DNA from: Streptomyces sp. DvalAA-14
Lineage (GTDB): Bacteria; Actinomycetota; Actinomycetes; Streptomycetales; Streptomycetaceae
Direction: 5' to 3'
NCBI RefSeq assembly: GCF_900091855.1
Contig: NZ_FMCH01000636.1
Coordinates: 1 to 40,087 of the forward strand
Length of the DNA: 40,087 nucleotides
A program made the position numbers and the translations under genes. The notes under the pieces were generated by a model. That model worked only from the letters and a program-made list of their open reading frames with translations. It was not told where the DNA came from and did not search any database. Below are positions 19,468 through 28,160 of the stretch, in pieces. Numbering within the stretch: the first letter of the stretch is position 1; each line of letters begins with the position of its first letter.

Positions 19468-20070
19468 ATGTCCGCCGGAAAGCAGCGCATCGGTGTGATG
19501 GGCGGTACGTTCGACCCCATCCACCACGGGCACCTGGTGGCCGCGAGCGAGGTGGCCAGCCTCTTCCACCTCGACGAGGTGGTGTTCGTACCCACCGGGC
19601 AGCCCTGGCAGAAGGAAGACCGCAAGGTCTCGGCTGCCGAGGACCGCTACCTGATGACGGTGATCGCCACCGCCTCCAATCCGCAGTTCTCGGTCAGCCG
19701 CAGCGACATCGACCGGGCGGGACGCACGTACACCATCGACACCCTGCGGGACCTGCGGGCGGAGCACCCGGCGGCGGACCTCTTCTTCATCACCGGCGCG
19801 GACGCCCTCTCGCAGATCTTCTCCTGGCGCGACGCCGAGGAACTGATCTCCCTGGCGCATTTCATCGGGGTGACACGTCCGGGGCATACGCTGTCCGACC
19901 CGGGCTTCCCCGAGGGTGGGGCGTCATTGGTGGAGGTCCCGGCACTGGCGATCTCGTCCACCGACTGCCGTCAGCGGGTGGCCAAGGGGGATCCGGTCTG
20001 GTACTTGGTTCCGGACGGTGTGGTGCGCTACATCGACAAACGCGCGCTGTACCGGGACGCGACCGGGTAG
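19468..20070 (+). CDS. nadD: Nicotinate-nucleotide adenylyltransferase
   Basis: A 200-residue Rossmann-fold nucleotidyltransferase that joins ATP and nicotinate mononucleotide to make deamido-NAD. The N-terminal [18 protein letters not shown] holds the HxGH motif. [23 protein letters not shown] and the C-terminal [10 protein letters not shown] (ISSTxxR motif) complete the set; Cys replaces the common Ile in that last motif. The ATG starts one base after the stop of the 49-residue peptide, and the LCP-like gene follows after 32 nt, so this is an operon core. Confidence 0.96.
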
Positions 20071-20102: not shown

Positions 20103-22073
20103 GTGAACGACGCAAACCCCCGTTGGCAGTATGCCGAGGGCGGTCCCGACAACGAGAGTGACCCTTACGCGCAGGAGCCTTACTACCAGCAGCAGCCCTA
20201 CGGTTACGACGCGTACGGCAGGCCCCTTCAGCCGCAGCAGACCCCGCCGCAGCAGCAGCCGGCCCAGCACCCCCAGCCTTCCCCGCATCCGCAGCCGGGA
20301 AGCTACCCGGATCCGTACTACCAGGACCCGGCACAGACCTACGGCGGCCAGCAGCAGGGCGGCCAGCCGGGCGGCCCGCCCCCGGGCTGGATCCCGCAGC
20401 AGCCGCAGCGGCCCCACTACGAGCAGCCGCAGCAGCAGCCCCAGGCGTACGACACGGGGCAGCAGCCGCCCGTCTACGACACCGGCCGGCAGCCGGGCTA
20501 CCAAACGGGCCAACAGCCCGTTTACGACACCGGTCAGCACCCGGTCTACGACACGGGCCAGCACGCCCCCGTGTACGACACCGGTCAGCACCCCGTCTAC
20601 GACACCGGCCGGCAACCGATATACGACACCGGCCGGCAGCCGGTTTACGACACGGGGCAGCAGCCCGCTTACGACACCGGCCAGCAGCCGGTCCACGACA
20701 CCGGCCAGCACGCCGTGTACGACACGGGCCGGCAGCAGCCGGTGTCCGAGGCCGGGCCCGGGTCCGGCCGCGAGGCCGAGGCGGAGGGCCGGCCGGGGCT
20801 GAATTACCACACCGAGCAATTCGCCTTCCTCGACGAGGAGTCGGAGGAGTCCGAAGAGGTCATCGACTGGCTGAAGTTCTCCGAGTCCCGCACCGAGCGG
20901 CGCGAGGAGGCCAAGCGGCGCAGCGGCAACCGCAAGCGCGGCCTGGTGCTGCTGGTGGTCCTCGCCCTGCTCGGCGCCGGCGGCTATCTGTGGCACGCCG
21001 GCAAGATCCCCGGCCTCAGCAAGGACAAGATCGCCCCGGTCGCCTCCGGCGGAGCCCAGAAGCGCGATGTGATCGTCGTCCACATGCTCCCGGTCAACGG
21101 CGGACCCAGCTCGACCGCGCTGATGGTCGACAACGCCACCAAGGGCCGCGGCACCACCGTGCTGATCCCCAACTCCCTCCAGGTCACCGCGGACGACGGC
21201 ACCACGACCACGCTGGACAAGTCCGTGGCCGACGGTGTCGGCCCCACCCGCGACTCGCTCAACACGCTGCTCGGCACCGACATCAAGGGCAGCTGGCGGC
21301 TCGACTCGCCCTACCTGGAACTGCTGGTCGACTCCCTCGGCGATGTCCTGGTGGACACCAACACCGCGATCAAGGGCACCGGCAAGGCCAGCGGCACCAC
21401 GCTGGTGCCCAAGGGCCAGCAGGAGGACCTGACCGGCCAGAACGCCGTGCTGTACGCCACCTACAAGGCCCCCGGCGAATCGCAGACCGACCAGCTCGCC
21501 CGCTTCGGCCAGGTCATGCAGGCGGTGCTGAAGAAGATGCCCAGCGACGCCGGCGACGCCACCAGGACCGTCCAGGGGCTCAGCCAGATCCTCGACCCCT
21601 CGCTGAACGACAAACAGCTCGGCGCCTCGCTGGCCGGCCTCGCCGAACTGGCCAAGACCGGCGCCTACGACACCGCGATGCTGGCCGTGCAGAAGGACGG
21701 CACGCTCAGCGCCCAGTCCACCGACAACGTGGTCAAGGACGTGCTCGGCGGCAACGTCAAGCAGTCCGCCGGCGGTACCGGCCAGGCCCGCGTCGAGATC
21801 CAGGACGCCACCGGGAACGCCAAGGCGGCCAATATCGCCCAGGCCGCGATCGTCAACGGCGGCACGTACGTGTACGTGTCCGGCGGCAAGGCGGCGAGCA
21901 CCCGGACCCTGTCCGAAGTGCTCTACAGCGACCCGGCCCGACTGGCCGCGGCCAAGGACGTGGCCGCCACCCTGGGGCTGCCGGTCAGCGAGGTGAAGAA
22001 GGGCACGGTGCCGTCCAACGCGGACATCACGGTGGTCCTCGGCAAGGACTACAAGCTGCCGCCGTCCAACTGA
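20103..22073 (+). CDS. LCP-like protein with LytR_C domain and YDTG repeat linker; canonical LCP arginines absent
   Basis: A 656-residue protein. Residues 1-115 are Gln/Pro/Tyr-rich and 116-214 form twelve YDTGxxP-type units. A charged stretch and one helix (RGLVLLVVLALLGAGGYLW, about 280-298) follow, so the repeats are cytoplasmic. From about 321 to 500 an LCP fold outside the cell is recognisable (STALMV, TTVLIP, LELLVDSLGDVLVD, LTGQNAVLYATY). LytR_C spans about 563-655. LCP enzymes attach wall polymers to peptidoglycan, but this copy has PSST for RSDT, IPNS for IPRD and YATYK for VRxR, losing the phosphate-binding arginines. By position it may be the orthologue of S. coelicolor PdtA, an LCP ligase (recall, not checked). 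GTG 20103 has AAGGGG ahead. Confidence 0.85.
   Translation: MNDANPRWQYAEGGPDNESDPYAQEPYYQQQPYGYDAYGRPLQPQQTPPQQQPAQHPQPSPHPQPGSYPDPYYQDPAQTYGGQQQGGQPGGPPPGWIPQQPQRPHYEQPQQQPQAYDTGQQPPVYDTGRQPGYQTGQQPVYDTGQHPVYDTGQHAPVYDTGQHPVYDTGRQPIYDTGRQPVYDTGQQPAYDTGQQPVHDTGQHAVYDTGRQQPVSEAGPGSGREAEAEGRPGLNYHTEQFAFLDEESEESEEVIDWLKFSESRTERREEAKRRSGNRKRGLVLLVVLALLGAGGYLWHAGKIPGLSKDKIAPVASGGAQKRDVIVVHMLPVNGGPSSTALMVDNATKGRGTTVLIPNSLQVTADDGTTTTLDKSVADGVGPTRDSLNTLLGTDIKGSWRLDSPYLELLVDSLGDVLVDTNTAIKGTGKASGTTLVPKGQQEDLTGQNAVLYATYKAPGESQTDQLARFGQVMQAVLKKMPSDAGDATRTVQGLSQILDPSLNDKQLGASLAGLAELAKTGAYDTAMLAVQKDGTLSAQSTDNVVKDVLGGNVKQSAGGTGQARVEIQDATGNAKAANIAQAAIVNGGTYVYVSGGKAASTRTLSEVLYSDPARLAAAKDVAATLGLPVSEVKKGTVPSNADITVVLGKDYKLPPSN
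20448..20744 (+). repeat. Coding repeat: twelve YDTG-type octapeptide units
   Basis: Twelve 24- to 27-bp units encode YDTG followed by [QR][QH]P[VPAI] variants; ten have YDTG exactly, one YQTG and one HDTG. Codon use differs between units, so the protein pattern has been kept while the DNA drifted. It lies in the predicted cytoplasmic part of the LCP-like protein. Confidence 0.9.
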
Positions 22074-22203: not shown

Positions 22204-22635
22204 GTGACCGCCACTGACCGCTCCATCGAGCTGACCCGCGCCGCCGCCCAGGCGGCGGCCGACAAGCTCGCGCACGACATCATCGCCTACGACGTCAGCG
22301 ACGTGCTCTCCATCACCGACACCTTCCTGGTCGCCTCGGCGCCCAACGACCGGCAGGTCAAGGCCATCGTGGACGGCATCGAGGAGACCCTCCTCAAGGA
22401 GCTCGACGTCAAGCCGGTCCGGCGCGAGGGCGAGCGCGAAGGCCGCTGGGTGCTGCTCGACTACATCGACATCGTGGTCCATGTGCAGCACGCCGAGGAG
22501 CGGGTCTTCTACGCGCTGGAGCGGCTGTGGAAGGACTGCCCGGAGATCGAGCTGCCCGAGGAAGCGGCAGCCACCCGGGGCAAGGCCGCGGCCCACGAGC
22601 GTGCCAACGCCGCGGGCGAGGACGAGGGAGCCTGA
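22204..22635 (+). CDS. rsfS: Ribosomal silencing factor RsfS (Iojap family)
   Basis: A 143-residue protein. The core includes AADKLAHDIIAYDVSDVLSI, TDTFLVASAPNDRQVKAIVD, GRWVLLDYIDIVVHVQHAEE and RVFYALERLWKDCP, the RsfS signature. The factor binds ribosomal protein L14 and blocks subunit joining when nutrients are short. An Ala/Glu-rich tail of about 25 residues follows. GTG 22204 is preferred to ATG 22126, since the extra 26 residues would be encoded by the strong hairpin and match nothing in the family; its ribosome-binding site is weak. Its stop is one base from the next start. Confidence 0.94.
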   Translation: MTATDRSIELTRAAAQAAADKLAHDIIAYDVSDVLSITDTFLVASAPNDRQVKAIVDGIEETLLKELDVKPVRREGEREGRWVLLDYIDIVVHVQHAEERVFYALERLWKDCPEIELPEEAAATRGKAAAHERANAAGEDEGA

Positions 22636-23290: not shown

Positions 23291-23497
23291 CGCTGCCGCG
23301 GGGCCGGCCCGGCCGGGCCGAGTTCAGAGGCGCTCCCGGGGGCCGGTGACCTCGCCGGTACCGGCCGGGTTCCGGCCTGGTCCGGGGGCGGTTCCGGCCC
23401 GGCCGCGGCGTGGTCCGGGGGCCACCGGAACGGATTTCGTTTCCGGTGCGCTCACCGGCTATGCTTCTTCTCGTCGCCGCGACAACCGGGCGGACGC

Positions 23498-23570
<73 letters not shown>

Positions 23571-23623
23571 CGAAGGCGATGGGCGAGGTGTGTCTGCGGA
23601 TTGCGCAGACCGTCTCGCCTTCG
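23571..23623 (+). terminator. tRNA-Ala copy 1 terminator
   Basis: CGAAGGCGA (23571-23579) pairs with TCGCCTTCG (23615-23623), with an inner GTCTGCG/CGCAGAC stem. It starts right after the tRNA discriminator base. Confidence 0.85.
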
Positions 23624-23682
23624 TCGTTTCTGCGCGGGCTCCGCCCGCGCGGGGCGGGGGCTTCGCCACCCGCACCCCCTCG

Positions 23683-27776: not shown

Positions 27777-27812
27777 GTACCCCAAGTCGCCGGGCCACGG
27801 CCCGACGGACGC

Positions 27813-27885
<73 letters not shown>

Positions 27886-27938
27886 CGAAGGCGATGGGCG
27901 AGGTGTGTCTGCGGATCGCGCAGACCGCCTCGCCTTCG
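27886..27938 (+). terminator. tRNA-Ala copy 2 terminator
   Basis: CGAAGGCGA (27886-27894) pairs with TCGCCTTCG (27930-27938) with the inner GTCTGCG/CGCAGAC stem. It differs from the copy-1 terminator at only two bases, in the loop and inner segment. Confidence 0.85.
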
Positions 27939-28160
27939 TCGTTTCTGCGCGGGCTCCGCCGGCGCAGAGCGAGGGCTTCGCCACCCGCACCCCCCGGGGG
28001 TCGGGCAGGGTGGGCCCGGGGGTTCGCGCACCCCTCGGTCGGGCGGGGCGGGCCCCGGGTGGGGGCGGCGGGCATGCGCGGGGGGACGGACGCTGGTTTC
28101 ATGGGGCTCGGCGTGCCTGGACCCGTCTGCCGCGAGCAGCCCGAGCAGGGAGTACGAACC

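Follow-up and report, generated by a model that had tools for sequence, protein, structure and literature searches.

An old LCP-fold lineage at the nadD–rsfS locus of Streptomyces and other actinobacteria that appears to have lost its phosphotransferase site

Does the LCP–LytR_C protein encoded between nadD and rsfS in Streptomyces sp. DvalAA-14 join polymers to the cell wall, or does it serve another purpose there? In the 40,087-bp stretch of DNA that we analysed (the window), the gene (20103..22073, + strand) starts with GTG and encodes a membrane protein of 656 residues, which we class as a pseudo-LCP/LytR_C protein of the PdtA type. It is preceded by nadD (19468..20070, + strand; PF01467, in agreement with the TIGR00482 places of 15 genomes) and followed by rsfS (22204..22635, + strand; PF02410, with the GTG at 22204 taken as the start of an open reading frame listed from 22126). 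All three genes read in the same direction in that order, and the position in the nadD–rsfS interval is the one expected of the PdtA group. After rsfS come a histidine phosphatase gene (PF00300, 22481-23290) and two copies, 95% alike and 4315 bp apart from start to start, of a 201-bp sequence that carries a tRNA-Ala (GGC) gene (23479-23679 and 27794-27994).

PdtA of S. coelicolor (SCO2578) is published, on the basis of genetics, as a polydiglycosylphosphate (PDP) transferase. According to the accessible text of a review, PDP is lower in the deletion mutant, the protein emerged from a screen for proteins that interact with the spore wall complex, and the ten other LCPs were unable to replace it. 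The available parts of PMC11481543 name PdtA and Vnz_11555 of S. venezuelae as orthologues, report no detectable developmental effect of deleting Vnz_11555, and state in one sentence that this protein "may have lost enzymatic activity"; PMC11985553, in its accessible text, only cites PdtA. We liken the window protein to PdtA and Vnz_11555 through locus and domain order rather than through the SCO2578 sequence itself. Whereas PdtA is an enzyme in the literature, the lineage to which the window protein belongs appears to lack the site for such a reaction.

From the N terminus, the window protein consists of a repeat-rich cytoplasmic tail, a single putative membrane helix, an LCP-like domain and LytR_C. 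The tail is encoded in part by 24-bp tandem repeats (20448..20736, + strand; 12 units by pattern), which give a Y-D-T-G-Q/R repeat. A conserved motif next to the membrane on the cytoplasmic side, VIDWLKFSESRTERR (residues 253-267; 20859..20903, + strand), precedes the helix (residues 279-297; 20937..20993, + strand), which we placed by eye from the sequence. The LCP-fold domain (residues 318-556; 21054..21770, + strand) was delimited by Pfam, profile and model, and LytR_C (residues 561-650; 21783..22052, + strand) by Pfam. Pfam LytR_cpsA_psr (PF03816) matched residues 352-479 with 28.1 bits (cut-off 24.6) and LytR_C (PF13399) matched with 41.8 bits (cut-off 22.2), whereas the NCBI model for LCP transferases, TIGR00350, scored 18.8 bits, below its cut-off of 62.3. 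Several distant family members also score under the PF03816 cut-off. A first-pass annotation of the window, made from the sequence alone, had described an LCP domain stripped of its catalytic residues that kept its LytR_C and membrane helix; the two retained parts are borne out, the helix by eye.

Sequence profiles and a predicted model both indicate that the LCP fold of the window protein is real. A family profile (alignment A2, 16 rows taken from inside and outside the window's family) matched the solved chain of Bacillus subtilis TagT (3mej) with an E value of 3.1e-18, and also matched TagV, TagU and Cps2A. Compared profile to profile, canonical LCPs encoded in the same genome gave probabilities of 97.5 and 98.4%. 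As a single sequence, the LCP part found no LCP in the PDB, just two MotA chains with E values of 0.83 and 0.85. The LCP part alone, modelled with AlphaFold from an alignment that included one canonical LCP, reached a pLDDT of 71.7 and a pTM of 0.72; an earlier model of the whole extracytoplasmic part, made from 15 sequences without a canonical LCP, had a pLDDT of 50.7 and was discarded. In a Foldseek search with the LCP-part model, 33 rows with E ≤0.001 were LCP proteins (by name, most older entries being otherwise identified). VIA-align placed TagT with a wall teichoic acid precursor at the top (Z 17.9, 3.3 Å over 217 residues), a rank that it shares with other TagT entries. The LytR_C part of the profile gave a weak match (E 0.0078) to chain 2m5y, which we take to be VirR.

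Within this fold, the active site was judged by alignment. The four motifs lie where the first-pass annotation had put them: PSST stands in place of R-S/T-D, IPNS in place of I-P-R-D, YATYK in place of V-R-x-R and QTDQLARFGQ in place of D-x-x-R-x-x-x-Q. We scored seven positions in joint alignments, namely the Asp of R-S/T-D, the Arg of IPRD, both Arg of VRxR, and three residues of DxxRxxxQ (Asp, Arg and Gln). One joint alignment had put the R-S/T-D strand in the wrong place, and this strand was read from the others. The window protein has S337 for the first Asp (21111..21113, + strand), N357 for the IPRD Arg (21171..21173, + strand), T453 and K455 for the two VRxR Arg (21459..21467, + strand), and Q461, Q464 and F468 for the Asp, Arg and Gln of the last motif (21483..21506, + strand). 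It therefore keeps none of the seven residues, whereas all 38 canonical LCP rows keep all seven, a uniformity that is in part due to choice because these rows are strong Pfam hits. Three weaker canonical rows, L010, L011 and L211, which keep one, two and six of the seven residues, respectively, were excluded from the canonical set. Apart from the loss of these seven residues, the window protein, which shares its fold with TagT, TagU and TagV of B. subtilis, Cps2A and Staphylococcus aureus LcpA, differs from these proteins in a short loop between strands 1 and 2 and in having LytR_C and a long cytoplasmic tail.

The loss extends to the aligned rows of the family. Among 50 family rows, none of the seven residues is kept in 19, one in 22, two in eight and three in a single row. 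A search for orthologues with the canonical set, whose existence would have spoken against the first-pass reading, found none above three of seven in these rows. In the window's family, which comprises 97 distinct sequences from 106 loci, neither the IPRD Arg nor the first VRxR Arg occurs in any of the 97 sequences. The Arg of DxxR is found in three, its Asp in four and the Asp of R-S/T-D in 11 of the 97. The second VRxR position is Arg in 48 and Lys, as in the window protein, in 15 (63/97 together). Columns in which canonical LCPs conserve D, E, K, R, H, N or Q were retained less in the family than columns conserved for other residues (median 0.06 for 11 columns versus 0.46 for 15 others, p = 0.018); one more column, a Gly, stood outside this comparison because it had too few family letters. 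In alignment A3, one row that was out of frame by hand count had been dropped. The loss of the pyrophosphate-contact residues described in the first-pass annotation is supported, with two refinements: the second VRxR position is basic in 63 sequences, and R467 is kept in all 97, so that some basic residues of this stretch remain.

R467 lies three residues past the lost DxxR Arg (Q464) and corresponds to the second Arg of the canonical RxxRQ. It raises the question of whether a transferase site has been re-built from other residues, with R399 (in GSWRLD), K/R455, E459 and R467 taking over the phosphate and metal contacts, as the name PdtA implies. Several observations fit such an active enzyme: the loss of PDP in the S. 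coelicolor pdtA mutant given in the review, the family-wide conservation of R467 (all 47 rows that have a residue in this column) and E459 (41/48), and R399 in 84 of the 97 sequences of the window's family. GSWRLD (W398-R399; 21294..21299, + strand) is, however, a motif of the window's family, with W398 in 97/97, and R399 is unconserved outside that family. Moreover, R467 is matched by the +3 Arg of 28 of the 38 canonical rows, which is absent from the Cps2A contacts named in the available text of the review, as far as residue numbers can be matched to motifs from their spacing. Family-wide, only two D/E/K/R/H/N/Q columns, one acid and one base, are conserved in at least 85% of rows (E459 and R467), compared with 11 in canonical LCPs; Tyr451 is conserved as well. 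As just two such columns stand against 11, we see no re-built active site shared across the family in the alignments, and beyond E459 and R467 no conserved replacement set of acids and bases was found there; such a set would have spoken against the first-pass reading. The option of another chemistry raised in that reading is disfavoured, and we regard an active, re-built transferase as improbable. Given the sequences and the known chemistry of LCP proteins as set out in the accessible text of the review, that the window protein is non-catalytic is well supported.

Two further LCP-like proteins of the same genome depart from the canonical pattern. L011 (G000:C175:379-690), an LCP–LytR_C protein with L004 on the same contig (3060-3623), keeps two of the seven residues and is without IPRD and VRxR. 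As its neighbour in the tree is the active-looking paralogue L007, L011 looks like a separate loss. L010 (G000:C481:38459-38734) keeps PRD, has lost the stretch containing VRxR and DxxR, retains one of the seven residues and groups with L001.

We then considered how old the loss at the nadD–rsfS locus is. Matches were present in all 35 genomes of the genus and in all 150 sampled genomes of the family (which include those 35). In a sample of 296 genomes of the class, 82 from 24 families had strong matches (E ≤1e-40, hand count) and 18 had no match at all; the remaining matches in this sample are unsorted and may include many canonical LCPs. The class and family names of the sampled genomes are those that we take the titled loci to indicate. 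In 40 chosen distant loci, the gene has nadD beside it in 37 cases and rsfS in 38; at each of the five gaps the contig ends. A canonical LCP at the locus was sought in 15 chosen genomes that come from other families and have no strong match: nadD was found in all 15 and rsfS in 14, and no open frame in the ∼3.5 kb read there matched an LCP. In two other families, L227 (after nadD) and L228 (in the nadD–rsfS interval) are long open reading frames with a hydrophobic end that overlap or follow nadD at the place expected for the pseudo-LCP and are non-LCP by profile. Twelve genomes with the family all have two to nine strong LCPs elsewhere (Pfam, 74-181 bits), and their nadD-linked gene scores 23.5-46.7 bits in 11 and is unlisted by Pfam in the twelfth.

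A tree was built from 50 rows of the family and 41 canonical ones, after the fragment L173 and the canonical L009 had been dropped. One branch splits the two sets with an SH-aLRT support of 100; no root was set, and part of this dividing branch is due to the lost residues themselves. Because nadD and rsfS flank the gene in distant loci and a single, fully supported branch holds the family, the loss of the site is old, and the proteins that share it at this locus form a single lineage that spans many actinobacterial families. Synteny and tree together rule out recent decay, in line with the first-pass expectation that a gene in this conserved place had not decayed recently.

An old loss could nonetheless have left a relic without present function in this lineage. 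The S. venezuelae deletion without a developmental phenotype (PMC11481543, available parts) fits such a relic, as does G050, a 90% complete genome that has no match though its family has the gene; it is one of five among 61 relatives without a match. The gene is, however, carried throughout the genus and family samples, the S. coelicolor mutant has a strong phenotype according to the review, and each of the 97 distinct sequences reads without interruption, in a single frame, from its first strand to the end of LytR_C. Stops were flagged in some family rows, in the six checked just past the end of LytR_C. We therefore consider a relic highly improbable. The ratio of dN to dS (counting method) in the LCP part was 0.08-0.77 in the 25 closest pairs, with a median of 0.84 over 4637 pairs in which synonymous sites are saturated at high GC; owing to this saturation, we do not use it to say how strong selection has been.

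If the protein is in use, LytR_C and the tail might do the work, with the LCP fold as a drifting spacer. Extracytoplasmic identity does fall to 27-36% in the majority of the distant relatives in alignment A2, and VirR, a LytR_C protein without an LCP domain, contacts LCPs according to the accessible part of its description. Against a spacer, the LCP part is conserved like LytR_C in the window's family (mean conservation 0.65 versus 0.61) and has invariant W398, R467 and G469. Pfam LytR_C is found in four of seven distant members, and the remaining three lack it yet match the LCP model, in two cases with a score under the cut-off. This makes a mere spacer unlikely. The cytoplasmic side also carries a conserved element: the IDWLKFxESR segment is present in all 97 sequences of the window's family (88 by pattern, nine by eye) and in some related families, being confined to part of the families rather than class-wide, and a search of the genome found one occurrence.

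We therefore favour a model in which the window protein belongs to an old, single, non-catalytic LCP lineage and probably acts as a membrane adaptor for working ligases. The LCP fold has been kept, together with LytR_C in most members looked at, and the phosphotransferase site has been lost; the protein would by itself join no polymer to peptidoglycan. LytR_C would contact canonical LCP ligases, the IDWLKFxESR segment may contact the wall-building machinery inside the cell, and the pseudo-LCP fold might be where a partner, or else a lipid-linked polymer, is held. On this model, S. coelicolor lacking pdtA would have less PDP because its ligases are misplaced or less active. An adaptor role is suggested by the origin of PdtA in a partner screen and its non-replacement by ten LCPs, as given in the review, and by the presence of the cytoplasmic segment in 97 of 97 sequences and once in the genome. 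It is also suggested by two proteins known from the accessible parts of the literature. In CglA (Vnz_13690), the cytoplasmic part, the LCP part, the coiled coil and LytR_C each aid function or stability (PMC11481543). VirR contacts LCPs via LytR_C and is a proposed scaffold; in the split-GFP test, the signal came only from C-terminal parts of LCPs, and none was seen with full-length LCPs. As S. venezuelae showed no detectable developmental effect when its orthologue was deleted (PMC11481543), any such role is not universal. Several further points weigh against this model: the publication of PdtA as a transferase, the one to three site residues retained in 31 of the 50 family rows, the R-S/T-D Asp retained in 11 of the 97 sequences, the limited spread of the cytoplasmic segment and of Pfam LytR_C, and the silence of full-length LCPs in the VirR test.

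Both proteins resemble the window protein in part. CglA has the same cytoplasmic part, membrane helix, LCP domain and LytR_C; unlike the window protein, it keeps the essential residues according to its authors' alignment, with K220 four positions off (PMC11481543, available text). VirR, like the window protein, is a non-catalytic LytR_C protein, but it is without an LCP domain, and its LCP contact comes from experiment, whereas such contact by the window protein is predicted. Suspected inactivity of the S. venezuelae orthologue is already published: in the accessible texts, loss of activity is mentioned in PMC11481543 alone, for one species, and in none of PMC7831098, PMC11832169 and PMC11985553. 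New here are the depth of the loss, its locus and the single lineage that shares it; a search of the open-licence literature found no prior description of the lineage, its locus or its age.

A broader reading, which we offer tentatively, is that much of the class has one dedicated pseudo-LCP at nadD–rsfS that is older than the family splits and is an obligate non-catalytic partner of canonical ligases, its emptied fold receiving or presenting lipid-linked polymer and its LytR_C recruiting the ligase. If this broader reading were true, PdtA would be no transferase, and wall polymers would be attached by pairs of catalytic and non-catalytic proteins. As a published transferase appears to sit in a lineage that has long been without a transferase site, the S. 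coelicolor pdtA phenotype is to be re-read, and the difference between the S. coelicolor and S. venezuelae mutants becomes a question about partners. For annotation, caution is advised: in this class, an LCP–LytR_C gene flanked by nadD and rsfS is best not named a transferase before its site has been checked. A natural non-catalytic LCP would also provide a handle on whether ligation is done by complexes.
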